A stretch of 64,000 bases of DNA from Anaerolineaceae bacterium. GTDB taxonomy: Bacteria > Chloroflexota > Anaerolineae > Anaerolineales > UBA11657. The translations under genes were made by a program, and so were the position numbers. The notes beneath the pieces are model-generated. The model was given only the letters and a program-made list of their open reading frames with translations. It ran no database searches and was not told where the DNA came from. The DNA lies in contig BGOS01000024.1 in the NCBI GenBank assembly GCA_003569365.1, positions 42,964-106,963 of the forward strand. Direction: 5' to 3'. Within the stretch, counting starts at the first letter, position 1. Every line of letters starts with the position of its first letter. Positions 50,541-63,032 of this stretch are shown here, one piece after another.

Positions 50541-50807
50541 CATTTAGTTATTAGTTTCAACACAAGGCCACTTCCAAGCATATATAACGGAAAGGAAATT
50601 CAAGCTCTCTTGCACCTCGAAGTAATACGCCCAGCTCCGCAAGAGTCAATGACACTTTGTGCCAGACTTCACCCCACCAATCTCTCATGGCCAGTGACCT
50701 CTTTTGTCACATTTGTTCGATTTTCTGGGGCGTTTGATACGCGTGACAAACGGAAAATGCCCAATGCCTACGATACGGCATTGGCAGCCCACAACACTCA
50801 CCGCAGC

Positions 50808-50907
50808 GCGCCAGCGCCTGATCCACACCTATCCACGCTCCGCCGCATGTGACACTCCTACAGCGCAGTGATACCAGCAAGGAGTCTCGTCAAACTCCCG
50901 ATCCGGT
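50808..50907 (-). mobile_element. Strongly decayed IS91-family element end
   Basis: Aligns by eye with the two better remnants at about 59.5 and 62.9 kb (shared CTGATCC-ACACCTATCCACGCTCC, then GTCAAACTC). On the minus strand the C-terminal motif LEFDQTLGW is reduced to REFDETPCW and the stop is lost. Too degraded for any function. Confidence 0.5.
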
Positions 50908-50990: not shown

Positions 50991-51788
50991 CTAATTCCAT
51001 GCAGGAAACTTACTAATCGGAAATATATCAACTTGGGCTGAGCGTTGCTGCGAAAGCAATCCACCATCAACAGTCAAAAAACTACCGCTGATGTAACTGG
51101 CGTCATCTGAAGCCAGAAACAACACTGGGCGTGAAATCTCGCTGACCTCGCCAACGCGCAGTATCGGTATCGTCTCACCGCGAGCAGCCTTCATGTCAGC
51201 ACTCATGCCCTTACTGTCGATTGAGCCGGGCACAATACCACATACCCGCACACCGTATGGGCCAAGGTCAAGCGCCAGCGCCCTTGTAAAGGCTTCAATT
51301 CCGCCTTTGGCTGCGTCGTAAGCAGCGTTGCCACGGTGGGCCCGGGTCGCGCCGCCGCTGGACATATTTATAATGACCCCGCGCCGCTTGCGTGCCATGA
51401 CTTGGGCTGCCCGCACGCTGAAATAGTAAACGCTGTGCAAATTGCTGGCCAAAATTTCATCCCACCAAGCCGCGTCGCTTTCCAGAATATGCCGTTCAGT
51501 ATTTGTAAGTCCGGCATTGTTTACCAGCACATCCACAGTGCCATAAGTCTCCAAAACACGGTCAAACAGTGCGTTCACTTGCACGCTATTGCCAGCATCA
51601 GCCGGCACTGCCAGTGCCAGCCCATTTGCCGTGCAGATCTCGGCAGCCACCAGCGCAGCATTTTCGGCATGTATGTCATTCACAATAACAGTTGCACCGG
51701 CAGCGCCAAAGTGATGCGCAATTGAACGGCCTATTCCAGCCCCCGCTCCTGTTACGATTACAATCTTTTGGTCAAACCGGTAGGTCAT
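50991..51788 (-). CDS. Short-chain dehydrogenase/reductase
   Basis: NAD(P)-dependent oxidoreductase with the classical SDR pattern: TGAGAGIG (13-20) cofactor loop, VNNAG (89-93), catalytic Ser143/144 (INMSSGG), Tyr157 and Lys161 (YDAAKGG). Asp38 after the second strand (IVNDIH) suggests NAD preference. 265 residues. Last gene of the operon; its start codon lies immediately next to the flavoprotein stop. It could interconvert an alcohol and an aldehyde or ketone produced by the upstream enzymes. The substrate is unknown. Confidence 0.88.
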   Translation of the reverse strand: MTYRFDQKIVIVTGAGAGIGRSIAHHFGAAGATVIVNDIHAENAALVAAEICTANGLALAVPADAGNSVQVNALFDRVLETYGTVDVLVNNAGLTNTERHILESDAAWWDEILASNLHSVYYFSVRAAQVMARKRRGVIINMSSGGATRAHRGNAAYDAAKGGIEAFTRALALDLGPYGVRVCGIVPGSIDSKGMSADMKAARGETIPILRVGEVSEISRPVLFLASDDASYISGSFLTVDGGLLSQQRSAQVDIFPISKFPAWN

Positions 51789-52958
51789 CTATTGCAGCTC
51801 CAAATTTTTTGTGGTGTGCTTGGCCATATGTAATGCTGATCTGGTGATTTGAAATCGACTGATGTCGTGCTGCGTCTTGCCGGAAAGGGCCAAGTCGGTC
51901 AAGATTTCACCGATAACACTCGCAAACTTAAATCCATGCCCCGAACACGGGGATGCAATCACAATCTGCGGGTACTCCGGATGCCGGTCAATAATAAAGT
52001 CCTCATCCGGGGTCATGCTGTACCGGCAACTTGTGGTTTCCACAATCTCCCCGCTCAGTCCGTTCATTAATTTCATAGCCCAGTCAATTGCAACCTGCAG
52101 TTGTGGCAGATCAACCGGTCGATCCGGGTCGTTAGCTGCCACTGGCGTGCCAATTCGGTCGACCATAAACTTGGGTGCGGTGTGGTTGTAAATCGGAAAG
52201 GCCGATCCCAAACTAGTGCTACCGGCATAGCGCTGCAAAGCCAATGGAAACCGCCCAATACTGTAATCCGCCGGATTTTTTGCGGCAAGGAACACCACCT
52301 GCTCGCGCGAAACCTGCAAATGAAGATTAATTCCAAGCGCATTTAACATTGGCAGGCTCCACGAGCCTGCGCATAGCACCACACTATCGGCCTCGTAATG
52401 ACCCGCCTGAGTGGTGACCCGCACGCCAGTCGGCTGCGGTGCAATCTCTGTCACCTGCTCGTTCTGATGCAAACTCGCCCCATGCACCACAGCGCGGTCG
52501 GCAAAGGTACGCACACATTTTTCGGCTGCCAACATACTGTAGTCGCCTTGATAAAACCCGATGCTATTTTCAGGGGGATTGAACTGTGGGTAGCGATAGC
52601 GAATTTCGGCGGCATCGAGCGCATCGTAGGCAATTCCGAGCGCAGCGTAGTTCGCGCCAATCTCTGCGAGGCCGTGCGCATCCGGCGCGCCAAAATCCAA
52701 GCCGCCCACGCGTACAAGCAACGATTGCCCGGCTTCGGATTCCAGCTCATGCCACCGCTCAAATGCGGTTTGGGCGAGCACTACGTAGTCGGTGGTCTCA
52801 TATGCCAGGCGAATAATGCGCGATGGCCCATGCGAGCTGCCCAGGGTATGCCCGATTTGAAATTGATCAATCAGGCGCACCTGCGCTCCGCGTTTGGCCA
52901 AATAGTACGCCGTCGATGTACCTATGACACCCGCTCCAATCACAATAACATTAGTCAT
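51789..52958 (-). CDS. Sarcosine-oxidase-type flavoprotein (MSOX/MTOX family)
   Basis: FAD-dependent amine oxidase of the monomeric sarcosine/N-methyltryptophan oxidase family. GAGVIGTSTAYYLAKRG is the Rossmann FAD loop, followed by the family signature SSHGPSRIIRLAYE. Cys311 (TTSCRYSMTPDEDF) matches the Cys that holds FAD covalently in MSOX. Arg50 and Lys344 (HGFKFAS) match the substrate-carboxylate ligands. The O2-activating Lys263 (APKFMVDRIG) is kept, but the active-site His four positions later is Asp267. So an N-alkyl amino acid is likely, perhaps not sarcosine itself. 389 residues. Confidence 0.88.
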   Translation of the reverse strand: MTNVIVIGAGVIGTSTAYYLAKRGAQVRLIDQFQIGHTLGSSHGPSRIIRLAYETTDYVVLAQTAFERWHELESEAGQSLLVRVGGLDFGAPDAHGLAEIGANYAALGIAYDALDAAEIRYRYPQFNPPENSIGFYQGDYSMLAAEKCVRTFADRAVVHGASLHQNEQVTEIAPQPTGVRVTTQAGHYEADSVVLCAGSWSLPMLNALGINLHLQVSREQVVFLAAKNPADYSIGRFPLALQRYAGSTSLGSAFPIYNHTAPKFMVDRIGTPVAANDPDRPVDLPQLQVAIDWAMKLMNGLSGEIVETTSCRYSMTPDEDFIIDRHPEYPQIVIASPCSGHGFKFASVIGEILTDLALSGKTQHDISRFQITRSALHMAKHTTKNLELQ

Positions 52959-52996
52959 GTTTTGTTTGTCGCTTGGTTCGCTCTTGCTTCCATCTC

Positions 52997-54649
52997 TTAA
53001 TTCTGATCTGGTGCCGTCAATTCAATCAACGCCGACCGATGCGCAGATTCCGCCAGTGCACGCTCAAATGCGGCGGCAACATCTGTGGTTCGCGTCACGC
53101 GTTCAGCATATGCCCCAAACGCCTGTGCGTACAAAACAAAATCCGGGTTCTGCAAGCCTGTGCCGATTGCACGATTGGGGAAGCGCCGCTCCTGATGCGT
53201 TCGGATGGTGCCATAGCAGGTGTTATTCCATACAATCACAAGGATCGGCGCACCATATTGCTGCGCAGTAGCGAGCTCTTGCGCGTGCATCAGGAAGCAG
53301 CCATCACCCGCAAACGACACCACCGTACGCTGCGGCCAGGCAAGTTTGCATGCAACTGCCGCCGGCACTCCATAGCCCATCGTGCCGTTAACCGGTGCCA
53401 CTTGTGAGCGAAATGTGCTAAACCGGCTGTAGCGATGCACCAGCGCAGTGTAGTTGCCCGCCCCATTTGTAATGATGGCATCACCCGGCAGGCGAGCCTG
53501 AATGTGCGCCACAGCCATACCCCAGTCAATTGCAGGTGCCCCGGTTGTAGATGCTTTATTCACGGGCGCAGCCTGGCGGTAGTGTTCGTACTCGGCGCGG
53601 CCTTCGCGCAGCCATGCCCCCCAGCGTGCGCCATTTACCGGTGCCATGTCGTATGCGGCTGCTGCAAACTCCGCCATGCCGCTGACCATGCTCAGTGTCG
53701 GCTGATACACCCGCCCCAACTGCGATGGCTCGGGCAATACGTGCACCAGCTTTTGTTGCGCCACGGGAACTTTTAGCAAGGTGTAATCCTGCGTAACCAT
53801 TTCGCTCAATCGGTCACCGACTGCCACAATCAGGTCGGCACGGGCCACGCGCTGGTTAAGCTGCGGGTTGCCACCCACCCCCAACGCGCCAATGTATTCC
53901 GGCGCATCGTTATCAAAGATGTCCTGAGCCCTGAACGAAGCGACGGCCGGCAACCCATTGCGCTCCACAAACACGCGCAGGTTATGCGTTGACTGAATTG
54001 ACCAGCCGCCGCCACCGGCAATCAGCAACGGGCGCTGTGCCTGCAAAAGGAGCTGCTGAAACACTGCGAATTGGGTGGCACTGGGCGCAGCGTGCGCGGG
54101 TTCATAGCGGAGCGCATCGGACACGGCCACTTGCTCTGCCTGCATATCTTCGGGCAACGCAATTACAACTGGCCCTGGGCGGCCAGAACATGCAATCATG
54201 AACGCCCGCGCAAGCAGCTCGGGAATTCGGCGCGGGTCGTCAATTTGCACCGCCCATTTACACACCGGCCCAAATAGTTGAACAAAGTCAACTTCCTGAA
54301 ATGCTTCGCGGCCCACAAATGGGCGCGCTACTTGCCCAATCAAAAGGATCAACGGGGTTTCATCGTGAAATGCAGTATGGATCCCGCACATTGCATTGCT
54401 TGCCCCAGGGCCGCGGGTCACCAGACAAATTCCAGGTGTACCGGTGACCTTGGCATAAGCCTCAGCCATAAACGCCGCACCGCCCTCATGCCGGGCGCTA
54501 ATTAGCTGAATGCAATCCCGTCGTTCATACAGCGCATCCAATATATCGAGATAGCTTTCACCTGGCACACAAAATGCCATCGTCGCGCCATGAATCACCA
54601 ATTGGTCCACGAGCACTTGCGCTGCACTGCGAACAGTTAAATTCATCAT
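52997..54649 (-). CDS. Thiamine diphosphate-dependent enzyme (acetolactate synthase-like)
   Basis: Large ThDP family with N-terminal Pyr domain (Glu55 in SARHEGGAAFMAEAYA), a middle domain and the C-terminal PP domain (GDGCFLMHAQELA...VWNN, the GDG-N motif). 550 residues. The family includes acetolactate synthase, benzoylformate decarboxylase, oxalyl-CoA decarboxylase and sugar-acid enzymes. The phenylalanine/alanine-rich active-site context does not allow assignment to one. It overlaps hyuB by 4 nt, so it is part of the same operon. Biosynthetic ilvB is unlikely because no small subunit gene is present. A decarboxylase or carboligase acting on a 2-oxo acid from the pathway is inferred. Confidence 0.88.
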   Translation of the reverse strand: MMNLTVRSAAQVLVDQLVIHGATMAFCVPGESYLDILDALYERRDCIQLISARHEGGAAFMAEAYAKVTGTPGICLVTRGPGASNAMCGIHTAFHDETPLILLIGQVARPFVGREAFQEVDFVQLFGPVCKWAVQIDDPRRIPELLARAFMIACSGRPGPVVIALPEDMQAEQVAVSDALRYEPAHAAPSATQFAVFQQLLLQAQRPLLIAGGGGWSIQSTHNLRVFVERNGLPAVASFRAQDIFDNDAPEYIGALGVGGNPQLNQRVARADLIVAVGDRLSEMVTQDYTLLKVPVAQQKLVHVLPEPSQLGRVYQPTLSMVSGMAEFAAAAYDMAPVNGARWGAWLREGRAEYEHYRQAAPVNKASTTGAPAIDWGMAVAHIQARLPGDAIITNGAGNYTALVHRYSRFSTFRSQVAPVNGTMGYGVPAAVACKLAWPQRTVVSFAGDGCFLMHAQELATAQQYGAPILVIVWNNTCYGTIRTHQERRFPNRAIGTGLQNPDFVLYAQAFGAYAERVTRTTDVAAAFERALAESAHRSALIELTAPDQN

Positions 54650-56382
54650 GCTGCCCTAAGTTTTTCTGTCGCCGCCCAATCTACGGCGTAGTCTTTTGGC
54701 AACCGCACCAATTGACTGGGCGCCCCAAGATACCGCACCACCACACCATAATGTCGAACGGCAGCCTCAAGCGACACGTAGCCATTCACCACATCAGCCA
54801 GCACGATCTCAACGGGGCGCTCGTGGGGTGAGCCATACCCGCCTCCGCCCGGCAAATTTAATTGAACGCGTGTCGTGGGCTCCAGCAACACGATTGATTT
54901 GGGCTGCGCCTGCCGTCCATCAGTCAATATAAATTCACCCGCGGCACCAAAGCCCCCCCCTGCCGTTCCAGACGCCGGGAATTTGGTGCGGTCAATCAGA
55001 GGCGACACTTGCCAATCAGCCGCGCTTCGGCTGCCAAATTCGGTCCACTGCCCAAGCCCACCGCGCTGCATGCCCGGCCCGCCGCTGTCCGTTCGCAATT
55101 CGCGGCGGTGCAGCACAATTGGTGTGAGCGATTCAATCACTTCTGCGGGAACGCCCGCAACCCCACTTGGGAAGCCGGTGGCATTCAACCCATCTTTGGT
55201 GGAGCGTGCGCCACTGCCGCCACATTGAAAAACGGTAAAGATATATGGTTCGCCGGTGAGGCGCTTCCCGCGCCAAACACTCATCCAAAGCGGGTCAGCG
55301 CCATTGGCAATCAGTCTGCCGGGCAACACCGGAGCCAAGGCGGAGAAAATAACGCACGGCAAAAAATGCCCGATGATATTACGGCTGGCCACCGGCGCGG
55401 GGTCTATGCAGTTGAGAATACATCCATGCGGCGCCGAGACATGCACTGGTGCAAATGCGCCATCGTTATGAGGCACATCGGGGCAAATCGCAGCTTTCAT
55501 TGCAAACGAGGCGTATGCGTGGGTGTAGTTCAGAACCACATTAATTCCCCAGCGGCTTTGCGGTGAGGACCCGCCAAAATCAATATCGATGTCCTCATCG
55601 CGAATAGTCACTGTGACTTTAATCAAGATGGGATCGTCAAAACCATCGGTCCAAGTTTCATGGGTATACGTGCCATTTGTCAACGACCGAATAGCCAGGC
55701 GCATTGCACGCTCAGAGCGGTCGATGATTGCATCGGACAGCGCCTCAATGTCGTTCAGGCTAAACTCTTCCAGCAAACGAAGCAGTGAACGCCCACCCAC
55801 AGCATTGCTAGACATCTGGGCATACAAGTCACCGATCGTCTCATCCGGCGTGCGCACATTGGATCGAATGATATTTATCAGAACATCATTGGGTACACCG
55901 GCCACAAACAATTTCATAATTGGTATGCGCAGGCCCTCTTCATATACTTCTTTCGCCTCGGCTGAAAACACCCGCCCGCCAATATCGGGTGCATGGCAGC
56001 AAGTTGCAAAGTAAGCGATGGGGCGCCCAAGTTTGAAAATAGGAGTGACAACGGTGAAATCGTTAATTTGACCAGCAGTTTGCCACGGGTCATTCGTGAT
56101 TAGCACATCGCCAGCGCTCAATGTCTCTGGTGGAAACGCCTTCATAAAGTGCTTCATGCCCGTCGCCATTGCATTTATGTGGCCCGGGGTGCCAGTCATC
56201 GACTGGGCCACCATGCGCGCCCTTTGATCAAATACACCGCAGGCTAAATCCTGAGAATCGCGCACCACAGTGCTAAAGGCGGTGCGAATGAGTGCCACTT
56301 GTTGTTCATTGACAACAGCCAAGATCCTATTCCAAAGCACTTCAAGCGTAATTGGGTTTAACCCGGGTACAAGCTTAGTCAT
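54646..56382 (-). CDS. hyuB: Hydantoinase B/oxoprolinase subunit
   Basis: Beta-like subunit of ATP-dependent N-methylhydantoinase/5-oxoprolinase/acetone-carboxylase-type enzymes. Family marks: NPITLEVLWNRILAVVNEQQ, DSQDLACGVFDQRARMVAQS, HINAMATGMKHF, LITNDPWQTAGQINDF and the Gly-rich GGSGARSTKDG. 578 residues. The stop overlaps the next start (ATGA) and its own start overlaps hyuA by 8 nt, so the pair is translated together. The cleaved ring substrate is unknown. Confidence 0.92.
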   Translation of the reverse strand: MTKLVPGLNPITLEVLWNRILAVVNEQQVALIRTAFSTVVRDSQDLACGVFDQRARMVAQSMTGTPGHINAMATGMKHFMKAFPPETLSAGDVLITNDPWQTAGQINDFTVVTPIFKLGRPIAYFATCCHAPDIGGRVFSAEAKEVYEEGLRIPIMKLFVAGVPNDVLINIIRSNVRTPDETIGDLYAQMSSNAVGGRSLLRLLEEFSLNDIEALSDAIIDRSERAMRLAIRSLTNGTYTHETWTDGFDDPILIKVTVTIRDEDIDIDFGGSSPQSRWGINVVLNYTHAYASFAMKAAICPDVPHNDGAFAPVHVSAPHGCILNCIDPAPVASRNIIGHFLPCVIFSALAPVLPGRLIANGADPLWMSVWRGKRLTGEPYIFTVFQCGGSGARSTKDGLNATGFPSGVAGVPAEVIESLTPIVLHRRELRTDSGGPGMQRGGLGQWTEFGSRSAADWQVSPLIDRTKFPASGTAGGGFGAAGEFILTDGRQAQPKSIVLLEPTTRVQLNLPGGGGYGSPHERPVEIVLADVVNGYVSLEAAVRHYGVVVRYLGAPSQLVRLPKDYAVDWAATEKLRAA

Positions 56383-58537
56383 GCGTTAATATAATATTCC
56401 AGAGTTCATCAACAGCGGCAGTTGCACCAGAGCCAATAATCAGGGTGGACTCGCGCTCTTCGATTATGGCTGGCCCACTGATGCACATTCCCTTTGCAAG
56501 CGCGTAGCGGTCATAGACAGGTGTCTCGGTCATGCCACCCACCTCGGGGAAATATGCCGGGCGCGTCCCTTTACGGGCATCATCCGGGTGGCTTGCAATG
56601 GATTGATTCAAGTGACTGCGCACCAGGCTCAATGCCGGTTTCGGCGATGACGACACGACGCGCCAAGTGATTGCCTCTAACGGCACTGGCGGACCAAGGC
56701 GGCTGTACAACCGCAAATACTCCGCCTCAAATGTGGCACGGATCGCCGGGAGGTGATCTGCCGAAAGTAAGTCATCCGGCAGCACCACGCCCACCTCATG
56801 GCCCTGTCCAGCGTAGCGCACCTCGACACTGCAGGTGTGTGAAATGTCTTGGGGCAATACTCCCGATGCTTGGAGCAGCGCTCGCCCCTCAGCCTGCATC
56901 TCGCCCAGAAGACCATTGATACGCGGCCAATCCAAAGATGATCCCTCTAGCTTTACCGGCAACGAACGGGCAAAGTCAAATGCCAATGGCGCGGTCAAAA
57001 AACCAATCGCACTCATCACGCCCGCCCCAAACGGAATGACGACACTGGGTGCGCCAAGTGCTGCTGCCACCCGAAAAGCATGCACAGGCCCAGCTCCGCC
57101 AAAAGCAAAAATTGGCAGCCCGGCCGGGTCTTTGCCGCGTTCGATTGCATGCACCCGGGCGGCGCTAGCCATGTTCTCGTTCACAATCTGATGAATGCCC
57201 CACGCCGCTTGTTCGATACTCAGGCCAAGGGGTTGGGCAATGTGCTCATCAACTGCCCTGCGCGCGCCCGAAACATCCAGCGCAATGCCGCCCCCCAAAA
57301 AGAAATCAGGATTAAGATAGCCCAAGATCAAGTCAGCATCCGTCACAGTGGGCAAGCTGCCGCCATGGCCATAACACGCCGGCCCTGGTTGCGCCCCGGC
57401 TGACTCTGGCCCAACCTTCAACAGCCCGAGCGAATTGACTCTGGCAATAGAGCCGCCGCCCGCGCCAATCTCAATCATTTCGATCACGGGCGTCTTGATA
57501 GGCAGCCCAGATCCCTTCCTAAATCGATAACGCCGGTCAACTTCAAAGTCATGGCTAATGAGTGGCTGGCCGCGATCAATGATGGCGAACTTGGCGGTCG
57601 TACCACCCATGTCAAACGAGAGCAGATTCGCAAGACCGTCCACTTGGCCCATGCCGGCGCCGACCTTGGCACCGAAGGCTGCAGCAGCCAACACCCCCGC
57701 GGCCGGACCGCTTTCCAGTAACCGCACCGGGAAGCGCACGGCAGTCTCCACCGTGGCCACCCCTCCGCTGGAGAGCATCAAAAGCAAACTGCCCCCAACC
57801 CCCAACGCACCCATCCGCGCTCCAAGCTCGCGCAAGTAATCCTCCACCCGGCCTTGCACGTATATATTTGCCACGGTTGTAGAAGTGCGGTCGTACTCGC
57901 GAATTTCAGGAGCAACCTCAGAAGAGATAGACACCCGTATAGTGGGCGCAACGCGCGCCACAGCATCACGCGCAGCGCATTCGTGCTGTGGGTTAATAAA
58001 GCTGTTTAGAAATGCAATCGCAACTGCTTCAAAGCCTGCAGCCTGCAGCTCATGCGCCAAGCGCTCCACGTGAGCAACATCCAGTTCTTGATGAATGCTG
58101 CCATCGGACAGAATACGCTCAGGAATATCAAAACGAAGGTGCCGCGGCACCAGCGGCTGCGGCATTTCCAGCATTAGGTCATAGAGCTCATAGCGCTGTT
58201 CGCGACCGATTTCTGTGGCATCGCGGAAACCATCGGTAGCCAGGAGTGCAGTTGGCGCTCCCTTGCGTTCAATTAGAGCGTTGGCCACCAAGGTGGTGCC
58301 ATGAATAATCTGACGAATAGATTGCGCCGGCACATTGGCCTGCGCCAAAATCTCACGCAACCCGGCTTCAATGGCTTCAGACGGGTCTTGCGGAGTAGTG
58401 AGTATCTTGCCTACTACGAACTCGTGGGTTGCGTCATTGAGCAAAAACAAATCGGTAAAGGTACCGCCAATGTCAACGCCCACCCGAAACTTACTCTCAG
58501 CTGCATTTTCAGCTGCGCCTGAGTTGTTGTGTGTCAT
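56375..58537 (-). CDS. hyuA: Hydantoinase A/oxoprolinase subunit
   Basis: ATP-binding subunit that phosphorylates or activates the amide/carbonyl for ring opening. VGVDIGGTFTDLFLL is the ATPase phosphate loop, with HGTTLVANALIERKGA, SFDMGGTTAKFAI and FAFGGAGPVHAFRVA further on. 720 residues, standard. First gene of the minus-strand operon. The upstream AT-rich region has a 13-bp palindrome (58668-58680). A regulator gene is not present in the window. N-methylhydantoinase would yield N-carbamoylsarcosine, which fits the sarcosine-oxidase-type gene in the operon, but the needed amidase is absent here. Confidence 0.93.
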   Translation of the reverse strand: MTHNNSGAAENAAESKFRVGVDIGGTFTDLFLLNDATHEFVVGKILTTPQDPSEAIEAGLREILAQANVPAQSIRQIIHGTTLVANALIERKGAPTALLATDGFRDATEIGREQRYELYDLMLEMPQPLVPRHLRFDIPERILSDGSIHQELDVAHVERLAHELQAAGFEAVAIAFLNSFINPQHECAARDAVARVAPTIRVSISSEVAPEIREYDRTSTTVANIYVQGRVEDYLRELGARMGALGVGGSLLLMLSSGGVATVETAVRFPVRLLESGPAAGVLAAAAFGAKVGAGMGQVDGLANLLSFDMGGTTAKFAIIDRGQPLISHDFEVDRRYRFRKGSGLPIKTPVIEMIEIGAGGGSIARVNSLGLLKVGPESAGAQPGPACYGHGGSLPTVTDADLILGYLNPDFFLGGGIALDVSGARRAVDEHIAQPLGLSIEQAAWGIHQIVNENMASAARVHAIERGKDPAGLPIFAFGGAGPVHAFRVAAALGAPSVVIPFGAGVMSAIGFLTAPLAFDFARSLPVKLEGSSLDWPRINGLLGEMQAEGRALLQASGVLPQDISHTCSVEVRYAGQGHEVGVVLPDDLLSADHLPAIRATFEAEYLRLYSRLGPPVPLEAITWRVVSSSPKPALSLVRSHLNQSIASHPDDARKGTRPAYFPEVGGMTETPVYDRYALAKGMCISGPAIIEERESTLIIGSGATAAVDELWNIILTHD

Positions 58538-59237: not shown

Positions 59238-59459
59238 TCATAAGTTGGACGTCGCGTTGCAACTTTCAATCCGCACTGTTTCGCCATCCGATGGCAGCCT
59301 CATAGGCTGCACAACGCCCGCACCTACTACGCGCGGCGCAGCACCACACTCCAGCTACATGCGCAGGTCACGCTCCAAGTATGCCGGCACAGGGTCTACC
59401 ACCCAATCTGCACCCGCATCCAGCCCATCCGCGCGCCGCCGCGCCACCACCTGATCCAT
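59238..59459 (-). pseudogene. Broken small reading frame beside the IS91 remnant
   Basis: From ATG 59459 (MDQVVARRRADG, then DAGADWVVDPVPAYLERDLR) the minus strand reads 34 codons to an in-frame TAG, and after it 38 more protein-like codons (LECGAAPRVVGAGVVQPM...) to TGA 59238. The start region is similar to that next to the remnant at 50.8 kb. I do not recognise the protein. It may have been a second gene of the element or a decayed neighbour. Confidence 0.35.
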
Positions 59460-59722
59460 ACCTATCCACGCTCCACCGCGTGTGCCACCTCTGCAGCGCA
59501 GGATCACCAACCCAACGTCTGGTCAAACTCTAGTTCAGGGATTGCCTCAAACACCGCTTTCGGAGCAGCTAGCTCCTGCAGTCTTCATCTCCAGGGGCGG
59601 TGAGCGCGCTGGGGCGATTGCCGGTGCACTTGTTGGCTCACCTAAATGTGCCAGTATCTGCCGCACAGTTGCCGGCTCTGTGATGAAGCCAATCAGGCGC
59701 ACCCGCCCGCCGCACCCGCCGC
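59460..59722 (-). mobile_element. IS91-family transposase C-terminal remnant with frameshift
   Basis: On the minus strand, Gly/Cys-rich CGGCGGRVRLIGF leads to ITEPATVRQILAHLGEP and APAIAPARSPPLEM, characteristic of the C-terminus of IS91-type (Y2, rolling-circle) transposases. A one-base shift then switches to the frame reading AVFEAIPELEFDQTLGW and a TGA at 59504-59506. The remainder upstream is unrecognisable. The downstream ~45 nt past the stop are shared with the copy at 50.8 kb and may be the element terminus. Confidence 0.75.
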
Positions 59723-60179: not shown

Positions 60180-61370
60180 TTAATCGAAAAACTGCGTGTC
60201 GCCTGCCTCGAGATATTTTTTTGCAGCCTTAATCCGGAAACTTATGCCCAACCCCGGCTTATCCCAAACATCCACAAAGCTCTCTTTGACAATTTGGTCA
60301 GGTAACCCATCAACAACGTCGTACCACCACGGGTGATTGGCTTTGGGGTATTCAAAGGCAATAAAGTTATCCGGAAGGGTGGCACAAACCTGCACGAGGG
60401 CAGCCAAGCCAAACAACCCGTTACCGGTGCCATGGGGAGCCATCATGATCCCGTGAAGGTCAGCATACTCGCAGATCCATTTGAGTTCGGCAATACCACC
60501 CACGTCGAGTGGATCAGGGCCAATTACGTCAACAGCGCGCTTTTCAATCAGTTCCATGAAGTTTTGGCGCAAATACATCTGTTCGCCTGTATGCAACGGG
60601 GTACTGGTTTTAGTTTTGACGTCGCGGTATTGATCGGCAGTAACAAACGGGGTATAGTCGCCGGACAGCATATCTTCAAGCCAAAGCAGATTGTATGGTT
60701 CACAGGCCTTGGCAAATCGCACGGCGTCTTGGGGCATAAACCCTGGACCACAGTCAAGAGCAAGCCCAATAGAATCTCCCAACACCTCCTTAATTGCAGC
60801 TACACAAGCGACAGTATGCTTAAGCCCCTGCTCGGTCATTACCCCGCGATTTGAATGGGCGCCCCAGGTATGAAGCTCGCCATAAAAATAGTTGCGCGTC
60901 GTTGTCGCCATCGGACTATGAAATGAAATTGGTTGCTTAAAAATTGAGAATTGTTCCGGCCATTCACAAATTTTGAGGATGTTCTCGGCATATTCGGAGG
61001 GCGTCTGCGTTGGCATCGGGTAGCGGTTTGTGGTGATATAGGTGCGGACTTTATCACGTACTTTGCCACCGAGCAGTTTGTAGATGGGAAGCCCAGCGGC
61101 TTTGCCAGCGATATCCCACAAGGCTACCTCAATGGCACTGACGGCGGCACCCCACGGTTTGAATGCTCCTAGGCGCCTAATGCGCTGCATGACTGCTTCG
61201 ACATTGGTAGGGTCTAAACCCACAATCATGTCACGGTAGAAGAGTACGTGTGGTTTTAGGTAGGGTTTGTAAAATTCGGCTTGACCATAACCATCAATGC
61301 CCGCATCAGTGGTGATACGGATAATCGGGCATCCACCCATGATGGCACATTTGAGATCAGTAATTTTCAT
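60180..61370 (-). CDS. Enolase-superfamily dehydratase (mandelate racemase subgroup)
   Basis: Acid-sugar dehydratase/racemase fold. Metal ligands are D206 (LALDCGPGF), E232 (WLEDM) and E263 (HTGEQM); the catalytic His is H313 (APHGTGNG). The capping domain (residues 1-125, GLPIYKLLGGKVRDKVRTY) is intact. 396 residues as in D-galactonate/mannonate-type dehydratases. The first metal motif DCG deviates from the usual DxN, and no KxK is seen in strand 2 (SIFKQPISFHSP), so the substrate may be unusual. It is separated from the hyu operon by 1.6 kb. On the minus strand TTGACA lies upstream of the start. Confidence 0.87.
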   Translation of the reverse strand: MKITDLKCAIMGGCPIIRITTDAGIDGYGQAEFYKPYLKPHVLFYRDMIVGLDPTNVEAVMQRIRRLGAFKPWGAAVSAIEVALWDIAGKAAGLPIYKLLGGKVRDKVRTYITTNRYPMPTQTPSEYAENILKICEWPEQFSIFKQPISFHSPMATTTRNYFYGELHTWGAHSNRGVMTEQGLKHTVACVAAIKEVLGDSIGLALDCGPGFMPQDAVRFAKACEPYNLLWLEDMLSGDYTPFVTADQYRDVKTKTSTPLHTGEQMYLRQNFMELIEKRAVDVIGPDPLDVGGIAELKWICEYADLHGIMMAPHGTGNGLFGLAALVQVCATLPDNFIAFEYPKANHPWWYDVVDGLPDQIVKESFVDVWDKPGLGISFRIKAAKKYLEAGDTQFFD

Positions 61371-61554: not shown

Positions 61555-61585
61555 AAGCTCAGCAGGTCTATGGGAAAATATTTTG

Positions 61586-62443
61586 ATGACAAACGCATGG
61601 CCATTTCCGTGGCCCCAACCTGCCATTGCCCAATACACAGCTCTCCGAGTGAACACCCCGCCCGAGATCAATGGGCTCTTGACCAAGGCTTGTTGGCAAG
61701 TGGCACCGCGTTCGCCCCGCTTTTCCGACCTAATCAACGGGCAACCGGGGATACATGACACCCGCGCTGCGGTCTTGTGGGACGATGATAACTTGTACGT
61801 TGGATATTGGATTGAAGAACCATTTGTCGAAGCAACTCTGACCGAGCGGGACGCGCTCATCTATGAAAACAACGATGTTGAGTTGTTTATAGCTGGGCAA
61901 GATGCCTATTACGAACTTGAGATCAATGCCTTGGGCACCATTTACGAAGTCTTATTTATTTGGGAAGAAGCCTTTGAGCGTGCCAGATATCATCTCCAGC
62001 CTGAGTTTGATCAAACTAAGCTTGGAGTGCGCCCGTTTGATGGCGTGGGCTTCCAACAACATCCCCGCGGCAAACGGATTGGCTATTGGAACTGGGATTT
62101 TCCCGGGCTGCGCAGTGCCGTACACATTGATGGCACGCTCAACGATCGCCGGGACCGGGACAGAGGCTGGAGCGTTGAGATCGCTCTGCCTTGGCAAGGC
62201 TTCAAAGCGTTAGCCGCACCGGATGGGCGGTCATTGCCTCCACGCGATGGCGATGTTTGGCGCATGGATTTTTCACGTTTTAATCAATATAAAGCCGCGC
62301 CACCGGCCCAAGATTCGGGAGGCTGGGCTTGGAGCCCGCACGGGGTGTGGGATTCGCACATCCCAGAACTCTTCACCTATGTAAAATTTTCGACGGCCCA
62401 GTGCGATACCCTTACGAGCCCTGCAGCACAGACTTCTCGCTAA
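61586..62443 (+). CDS. CBM9-like carbohydrate-binding domain protein
   Basis: The 285-residue protein fits the CBM9/DUF1083-like beta-sandwich used in sugar-binding and extracellular esterase/xylanase proteins: NTPPEINGLLTKACWQVA, DDDNLYVGYWIEEP, ENNDVELFIAGQD and the late WSVEIALPWQGF. No signal peptide is visible, so it may be cytosolic or its true start lies elsewhere. ATG 61586 (preceded by TTG 61583 in frame) is the likely start. No catalytic domain is attached. Often found near sugar-acid catabolic genes such as enolase-superfamily dehydratases, which agrees with the neighbour. Confidence 0.78.
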   Translation: MTNAWPFPWPQPAIAQYTALRVNTPPEINGLLTKACWQVAPRSPRFSDLINGQPGIHDTRAAVLWDDDNLYVGYWIEEPFVEATLTERDALIYENNDVELFIAGQDAYYELEINALGTIYEVLFIWEEAFERARYHLQPEFDQTKLGVRPFDGVGFQQHPRGKRIGYWNWDFPGLRSAVHIDGTLNDRRDRDRGWSVEIALPWQGFKALAAPDGRSLPPRDGDVWRMDFSRFNQYKAAPPAQDSGGWAWSPHGVWDSHIPELFTYVKFSTAQCDTLTSPAAQTSR

Positions 62444-63032
62444 ACGCAATGCAGCGGATAGGCTGATAGAACGCGACGAGCGTGCTGTTATCAGTACCCA
62501 GTAAACCGCAAGCTGCACCAGCTGCCGTTTAGATTGATACAAATCACGCATCGGGTTTAAGCCACCGTGCATATTAGTGAAAAGTGGTCTAGTGAGAAAT
62601 ATTCACTCTCGGACATGGTGACCTGTTACGGAGTTGAGGTTTTAGAGACTTCGACCACCCGCAACAACCAATACAACAAAAGAATTTTACGAAAAGAACG
62701 GTATCTACAAGCCTACTGGGCGCATCGATAATGATGTGAGCCACGCGCTCCAAAATACCAGCAGTTAAGGAAAATTTGCTTTAGCTAGCAAGGAGCTGGA
62801 GAAAAACATTGTTGCTGGGAAAGCGCCCCCGGTAGCCGCTCCGCCGCTTGTGCCACTCCTGCTGCGCAGGATCACCAACCCAACGTCTGGTCAAATTCCA
62901 GGTCCGGGATCGGGTCTGTATTCGCATCCGAGGGATGCAATATATGCGGCGGGATCGGCTTTCGTAGCCAAGTGTGGTGGCTGTTCAAATTCTTGATCTG
63001 GCTGTAAAGTTGGCCGCAGCGCAGATTACAAC
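62444..63032. other. 589-nt intergenic region between the CBM9 and MFS genes
   Basis: No intact gene. 62838-63008 holds the third IS91-type remnant (minus strand). The rest is AT-rich without recognisable features. Confidence 0.55.
62838..63008 (-). mobile_element. IS91-family transposase C-terminal remnant, copy 3
   Basis: On the minus strand the frame ...TDPIPDLEFDQTLGW ends with TGA at 62872-62874; the ~36 nt beyond match the 59.5-kb copy (TCCTGCGC-GCAG-GTGGCACA). The last 9 codons are identical or synonymous with that copy and D/E and L codons differ, indicating past protein-level selection. Upstream residues read best in another frame (FEQPPHLATKADP), so a frameshift is present. A hairpin CCTGC-GCA-GCAGG lies just after the stop. 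Confidence 0.65.

Follow-up and report, generated by a model that had tools for sequence, protein, structure and literature searches.

What would bring a two-subunit hydantoinase-type hydrolase, a thiamine diphosphate (ThDP) enzyme, a sarcosine-oxidase-type flavoprotein and a short-chain dehydrogenase/reductase (SDR) together in one tightly packed set of genes? The question is raised by a stretch of 64,000 nucleotides from an Anaerolineaceae bacterium (assembly GCA_003569365.1, contig BGOS01000024.1), here called the window, which closes a contig of 106,963 bases in an assembly of 2.63 Mb. Open reading frames (ORFs) were read over about 43.7-64 kb of the window, and five genes, all on the minus strand, were found over 7.5 kb. 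On balance, we consider it probable that the hydrolase, HyuAB, opens a lactam and that the ThDP enzyme acts on a 2-oxo acid to which this route leads. The gene order, the families, the conserved catalytic residues and the joint recurrence of these families in other bacteria were observed as described below.

Layout of the operon

The five genes are, in the order of their reading:
56375-58537, minus strand: hyuA, 720 aa, ATP-binding subunit of hydantoinase/oxoprolinase/lactamase type (PF05378, PF01968, PF19278)
54646-56382, minus strand: hyuB, 578 aa, second subunit, 8-nt overlap with hyuA (PF02538, 494.5 bits)
52997-54649, minus strand: ThDP enzyme, 550 aa, PRK08199 subfamily, predicted to decarboxylate a 2-oxo acid, 4-nt overlap with hyuB (NF006052)
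51789-52958, minus strand: FAD amine oxidase of monomeric sarcosine oxidase/N-methyltryptophan oxidase (MSOX/MTOX) type, 389 aa, 38-nt gap after the ThDP gene (NF008425)
50991-51788, minus strand: SDR oxidoreductase, 265 aa, 0-nt gap after the oxidase gene (PF13561/PF00106)

A preliminary description of this DNA had named the same five families with the same overlaps and gaps; our coordinates agree with it, and Pfam and NCBIfam models confirm the families. Chance does not produce frames packed like this over 7.5 kb, each matching a profile across most of its length, and the five co-directional, overlapping genes likely work as one catabolic operon.

HyuAB and lactam opening

The N-terminal and catalytic domains of HyuA and the HyuB domain were matched by Pfam above cut-off and near full profile length, and the pair has the features of an ATP-dependent HyuAB. 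The nearest relatives in the PDB were an N-methylhydantoinase (7hk5, 402 bits with hyuA and 187 bits with hyuB) and a caprolactamase (6yra_A, 382 bits with hyuA; 6yra_B, 195 bits with hyuB). Among the matches listed, hyuB was about 70% identical to proteins named Ktedonobacteraceae. ATP-driven opening of lactams by HyuAB-type enzymes has published precedents in 5-oxoprolinase and caprolactamase. The best curated NCBIfam models for both window subunits are those of the caprolactamase CapAB of Pseudomonas jessenii, for which an ATP-dependent lactam opening is described. Unlike CapAB itself, the window subunits fell far under the caprolactamase equivalog cut-offs (NF050156 and NF050157; 529 bits for hyuA and 246 bits for hyuB, against 1000 each), and the genes of CapAB are clustered with an omega-aminotransferase and a gene resembling succinate-semialdehyde dehydrogenase (SSADH).

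Ketone carboxylases belong to the same superfamily as HyuAB. On such a route the SDR would turn an alcohol into a ketone and HyuAB would carboxylate it with ATP, as for acetophenone. Trios of SDR, hyuA and hyuB were found, and hyuA reached 291 bits with the model of the acetophenone carboxylase gamma subunit. However, the caprolactamase models scored higher for both subunits (529 against 291 bits for hyuA and 246 against 56 bits for hyuB), and so did the structural relatives (402 and 382 against 290 bits for hyuA, 195 and 187 against 54 bits for hyuB). By both sets of scores an acetophenone-type carboxylase identity for HyuAB is unlikely, and we regard the ketone route for the operon as a whole as very unlikely.

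Identity of the ThDP enzyme

The ThDP enzyme passed the model of the PRK08199 subfamily (NF006052; 758.1 bits, curated cut-off 539) and missed the acetolactate synthase model TIGR00118 (353.3 bits, cut-off 538.35). Glu55 and the GDG...NN motif are present. At the position of the tryptophan of acetohydroxyacid synthase (AHAS) the enzyme has His485, and histidine holds this place in 59 of the 60 members of its own clade, counting the window, and in 94 of 95 other ThDP sequences; a separate acetolactate synthase (ALS)-like protein, encoded elsewhere in the same genome, has Trp at this position. The preliminary description had raised the possibility that the ThDP enzyme is a biosynthetic acetolactate synthase. 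The missed TIGR00118 model, His485 in place of Trp and the separate ALS-like gene argue against it, and this identity was rejected.

A carboligase, which would join an aldehyde or 2-oxo acid from the other enzymes to a second molecule and leave the product for the SDR to reduce, was also weighed. Phe117, Gln118, Glu119 and Lys131 of the window enzyme are common to the ALS-like protein of its own genome, and its nearest folds were those of pyruvate oxidase and of two enzymes that speak for a carboligase, AHAS and HKA synthase. On the other side stand His485, shared by 153 of the 155 ThDP sequences of the set versus Trp in the ALS-like protein, and the amino acid oxidases, aminotransferases and aldehyde dehydrogenases that neighbor part of the ThDP loci. 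A carboligase appears improbable.

These neighborhoods were read in 80 loci with ThDP relatives of 48-55% identity, which are the matches listed; one of the two search patterns does not fit the window, and the scan is uninformative on the absence of closer relatives. Genes in all fetched loci were called by a codon-score caller, so genes may be missed or mis-started. Within three genes of the ThDP gene, a DAO-family oxidase was found in 9 of the 80 loci (p=0.006) and an aldehyde dehydrogenase in 11 (p=0.007), the p values being uncorrected for the 11 families tested; six of the nine loci with a DAO gene form one clade. Locus L031 holds a 2-aminoadipate transaminase (score 745, cut-off 650) and HglS (714, cut-off 550), adjoining the ThDP gene, and a piperideine-6-carboxylate dehydrogenase (cut-off 730) was found in L031 (830), L051 (817) and L101 (801). 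These neighbors of ThDP relatives, of pipecolate/2-aminoadipate type, suggest that the substrates are 2-oxo acids such as 2-oxoadipate or 2-oxoglutarate. In addition, a short NIPSNAP-like protein (judged by eye; some 104-117 aa) was encoded within three genes of PRK08199-type ThDP genes in 10 of the 80 loci (p=0.0002, uncorrected; among them L025, L027, L033, L044, L045 and L095).

Oxidase and SDR

The oxidase passed the MTOX-type model NF008425 (333.9 bits, cut-off 257) and missed the monomeric sarcosine oxidase model TIGR01377 (292.8 bits, cut-off 479.65). Its predicted model (pLDDT 91) was closest in fold to the sarcosine oxidases of Thermomicrobium and Bacillus (TM 0.90-0.92 by query length), at 30-37% identity in the fold search. 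In a HMMER alignment to Bacillus MSOX, Arg47 and Arg50 of the window enzyme correspond to Arg49 and Arg52, Lys263 to Lys265 and Cys311 to Cys315, and Lys344 lies within a conserved SGHGFKF stretch. Thus, the fold, the flavin-Cys and the equivalents of Lys265 and of the carboxylate ligands are shared with MSOX and MTOX, whereas Asp267 occupies the position of His269. The preliminary description had reported both the retained carboxylate ligands Arg50 and Lys344 and the replacement of the active-site His by Asp267, the latter of which the alignment bears out. The replacement is not peculiar to the window oxidase, though: since Asp stands at this position in 28 of the 29 aligned oxidases, window included (that of locus L136 is the sole exception), Asp267 marks the oxidase clade. 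NikD, a related oxidase, also has an Asp in its active site. Enzymes of the MSOX family oxidize secondary amino acids, cyclic ones included, and among the matches of the fold search are crystal structures of MSOX in complex with L-proline. Contig C22 of the same genome encodes another MSOX-like oxidase with 35% identity to that of the window (L202, 10406-11611 and 15689-17209), near genes that by eye are dipeptide-type ABC transporter-like and MttB-like.

The SDR scored barely above the cut-off of its best model (218 against 215) and has the classical features, namely the Rossmann glycine motif TGAGAGIG, a catalytic Ser and YDAAK as Tyr-x-x-x-Lys.

HyuAB beside a sarcosine-oxidase-type protein had led the preliminary description to the end of the creatinine/N-methylhydantoin route and to the proposal that an amidase be sought elsewhere in the genome. 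The cluster contains no amidase, and the ThDP enzyme and the SDR have no role in that route. A search of the whole assembly for PF00857, the isochorismatase family, to which N-carbamoylsarcosine amidase belongs, gave only two adjacent partial matches, both on contig C4. The link to creatinine was therefore not upheld, and such a route is extremely unlikely here.

Relatives of the operon in Chloroflexota

A ThDP match at an E value of 1e-110 or better was found in one of 400 genomes of the phylum, and one at 1e-130 in one of 301 genomes of the order, in both cases the genome of the window itself. The close ThDP clade was met in none of the 47, 29 and 110 genomes of three class samples, which overlap the phylum sample of 400; these samples hold no known positive, so their emptiness is uninformative. 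At 1e-60, ThDP matches were found in 34 of 61 relatives, none above 34% identity except in the own genome.

A hyuB match at 1e-120 was present in 34 of the 400 sampled Chloroflexota genomes, own included. Twenty of these were chosen for wider reading; one sat on a contig too short for this, and the 19 loci that were read include several cut near hyuAB by contig ends. An SDR of the window type (61-63% identical) lay directly before hyuA in three of the 19 (L133, L134 and L136). The gene for an NF008425-type oxidase followed hyuB in one (L136, 324 bits), and another DAO-family oxidase followed it in one other (L135). In L133, neither a DAO-family oxidase nor a ThDP gene was found within the 19.9 kb read. 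Because the SDR gene precedes hyuA in L133, L134 and L136, and in L133 does so without oxidase or ThDP gene, the SDR appears to belong near the lactam step.

Two further loci showed other surroundings. In L132, hyuAB is followed by an amidohydrolase-family gene and then ABC transporter-like genes, and in L138 (8105-14094) hyuAB is flanked by arginase-family and zinc-dehydrogenase-type genes.

Related clusters in Proteobacteria

In two of the 80 ThDP loci, those of Pseudomonas BP8 (L055) and JUb42 (L056), two SDR genes are followed by hyuA, hyuB, an aminotransferase, an NAD oxidoreductase of the Epimerase family, a DAO oxidase and a ThDP gene. An SSADH-like gene comes next in L055 (688.6 bits, TIGR01780 subfamily cut-off 646; 806.6, under the PRK11241 equivalog cut-off of 828), and ABC transporter genes lie downstream in both. 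Of 258 plasmid records with a hyuB match, 18 loci were read, and four of these combine hyuAB with an aminotransferase, NAD and FAD oxidoreductases and a PRK08199-type ThDP gene. The hosts are Rhizobium K102 and SL42, Shinella sumterensis and Pseudochrobactrum algeriensis. The order is hyuA-hyuB-aminotransferase-NAD oxidoreductase-FAD oxidoreductase throughout, with the ThDP gene last in L156 and L160 and first in L161 and L163. The Pseudomonas and plasmid clusters carry in cis a candidate gene for each step of the route proposed below.

Compared with the window, HyuA and HyuB of these clusters are 41-46% and the PRK08199-type ThDP enzymes 45-52% identical, and a DAO-family FAD oxidase and, in some loci, SDRs are shared features. 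Unlike the window, the clusters have an aminotransferase and an Epimerase-family NAD oxidoreductase. Their FAD oxidase matched no NCBIfam model at 1e-30 or 1e-40.

Two other plasmid loci, L153 and L158, have hyuAB, NAD and FAD oxidoreductases and two SDRs, and within the 19.6 kb read neither the aminotransferase of the related cluster nor a ThDP gene of PRK08199 type turned up; L158 carries an Xsc-type ThDP gene at 27%. Among the eight loci with HyuAB and both oxidoreductases, the aminotransferase and the ThDP gene were therefore jointly present in six and, in the stretch read, jointly absent in two (p=0.036, a value that ignores the kinship of the eight loci and is weaker than it looks). This joint presence and absence suggests that the aminotransferase and the ThDP enzyme catalyze consecutive later steps, and that the FAD oxidoreductase, the NAD oxidoreductase and HyuAB form an earlier block.

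In L157, from Paracoccus, a pipecolate-oxidase-like gene (487 bits, below the cut-off of 600) precedes hyuAB and an SDR follows. The remaining 11 of the 18 loci lacked any DAO gene up to four genes away from hyuB. One of these, L166 on the Ensifer plasmid pT173c, has hyuAB and an aminotransferase, then annotations of 5-dehydro-4-deoxyglucarate dehydratase and aldehyde dehydrogenase, and is another variant of the module. On a Ruegeria plasmid (L167, 18378-19398), sarcosine oxidase subunit delta and an FAD-dependent oxidoreductase are annotated about 8 kb from hyuB.

A careful tree of 35 ThDP sequences placed the HyuAB-linked enzymes in three separate places: the window clade (100/100), a group with L055, L056, L156 and L160, and L161 with L163. 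The second group also holds three ThDP genes that are not beside hyuAB, and the window clade groups with L051, L057 and L093 (94/92). By the tree, HyuAB and PRK08199-type ThDP enzymes would have met either more than once, or once with later losses. The set of HyuAB, ThDP enzyme and oxidase is likely a recurring breakdown route. No description of this gene combination or of PRK08199 was found in the open-access full-text literature, subscription journals being outside the scope of the search.

Proposed route and alternatives

From the sequences we infer a substrate, an order of steps and a decarboxylase activity, and the specific order is put forward tentatively. The MSOX-type oxidase would convert a cyclic secondary amino acid that resembles proline or pipecolate, and is probably ring-substituted or N-alkylated, into a cyclic imine. 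The imine would hydrate to a hemiaminal, which the SDR may oxidize to a lactam like 5-oxoproline or 6-oxopipecolate, and HyuAB would open this lactam with ATP to an alpha-amino dicarboxylate. An aminotransferase encoded elsewhere would yield the 2-oxo acid, and the ThDP enzyme would decarboxylate it to a semialdehyde. The preliminary description had suggested a different N-methylated cyclic amide, broken down through a 2-oxo acid. The cyclic amide and the 2-oxo acid fit the clustering and the pipecolate/2-aminoadipate-type neighbors, and the N-methylated nature of the substrate found no support.

The same enzymes could act in another order, in which HyuAB opens an N-alkyl lactam first and the oxidase deaminates the ring-opened amino acid to a 2-oxo acid or a semialdehyde; a 2-oxo acid would then be decarboxylated by the ThDP enzyme, and the SDR would reduce the aldehyde. 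The precedent is the nmpABCDEF cluster for N-methylpyrrolidone in Alicycliphilus BQ1 and Paracoccus, in which, in the available parts of the two reports, the HyuAB-type nmpAB stands with the amino acid oxidase nmpC and the SSADH nmpF on a route to a semialdehyde (PMC6987047, PMC12866759). The window families also pair HyuAB with an amino acid oxidase, the gene order hyuAB-ThDP-oxidase-SDR suits such a sequence of steps, and no aminotransferase would be needed in the operon; together with the precedent, this keeps the alternative close. The comparison with nmp was made on the published descriptions of its enzymes. Those parts of the reports name no ThDP enzyme for nmp, and no counterpart of the SSADH they describe was found among the window's five genes and the enolase-like gene scanned with them. 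Moreover, simple lactam opening leaves an omega amine, and only a lactam of 5-oxoproline type would supply the ThDP enzyme with a 2-oxo acid, the SDR precedes hyuA in L133 where the stretch read holds neither DAO oxidase nor ThDP gene, and an aminotransferase stands beside the FAD oxidase in six of the eight clusters. Because of the joint presence (six) and joint absence (two) of aminotransferase and ThDP gene, together with L133, the oxidase-first order was preferred, and the lactam-first order is considered only slightly less likely.

Several observations weigh against the oxidase-first route and the shared function behind it. The window operon lacks an aminotransferase, which the proposed route would have to obtain in trans, and its oxidase and SDR show no close relation to the FAD and NAD oxidoreductases of the proteobacterial clusters. 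The contig of L134 stops at hyuB, so that absence of the oxidase cannot be inferred there. ThDP relatives of 60-91% identity are known here as proteins only, and in 56 of the 80 ThDP loci listed none of the neighbors up to three genes away is a DAO, aldehyde dehydrogenase, aminotransferase or HglS gene. When groups were counted on the tree, unlabelled rows left out, one change sufficed for the six HyuAB-linked ThDP genes. Around hyuB, DAO genes were not significantly more frequent near than far within the same loci (9/275 vs 3/221, p=0.14), and SDRs overall were not enriched (p=0.19).

With the far genes of the ThDP loci as a borrowed background, DAO genes (9/275 vs 3/826, p=0.0004) and aminotransferases (7/275 vs 0/826) were significantly enriched around hyuB; within hyuB loci the enrichment of aminotransferases was not significant (p=0.065), and aldehyde dehydrogenases were not enriched (p=0.56). 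The ThDP profile in this test also caught L148 and L158, neither of which is PRK08199-type.

Finally, none of the other genomes searched had these same five genes in the same order, as would be expected of chance neighbors from unrelated pathways. Yet the genes overlap, and the same families cluster repeatedly in other bacteria, so mere chance is very improbable as an explanation. The co-occurrence of the five families in other genomes, which the preliminary description had proposed as a check, was thus seen in part: related families recur together and the exact order does not.

Genome setting

The GC content of the operon (0.558) is below the mean of 107 overlapping 7.5-kb tiles from 20 stretches of the same genome (0.610, sd 0.024), with only two of the 107 tiles as low, and the operon was likely acquired horizontally. 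The other features read around it are:
50807-50897, 59430-59560 and 62837-62910, plus strand: copies of a dispersed repeat, the operon lying between the first two
60180-61370, minus strand: enolase-superfamily gene, galactonate/mannonate dehydratase-like, below every equivalog cut-off listed
61583-62443, plus strand: protein with a weak CBM9-like carbohydrate-binding domain, between two repeat copies

The repeat, of about 74-131 bases, has 13 matches in the genome. The enolase-superfamily gene was considered as a further member of the operon and rejected, being 1.64 kb upstream of hyuA with no ORF of at least 120 aa between; an enolase-like gene in L132 is only 28% identical to it, and membership was not adopted on that ground either. 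The only HyuB match in the genome was the hyuB of the window. Contig C29 (L203, 2875-5528) carries a HyuA-like gene followed by a DUF917-like gene, both by eye, and also copies of the dispersed repeat.

Significance

A broader reading, which we consider unlikely though worth stating, is that imine hydrate is turned into a lactam, opened by HyuAB at the cost of ATP and led to decarboxylation by PRK08199 enzymes, and that Chloroflexota and Proteobacteria each put this detour for cyclic imino acids together on their own, drawing on three branches of the ThDP family. If true, it would bypass the direct opening of the imine to the semialdehyde, at ATP cost. HyuAB and 'acetolactate synthase-like' ThDP genes have at least 7,990 and at least 7,998 protein matches, respectively, and their names rarely rest on tests. 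Their repeated clustering with dehydrogenases, an amine oxidase and an aminotransferase offers a shared class of substrates on which both families can be tested, and if the decarboxylation is borne out, the PRK08199 subfamily would gain a function.

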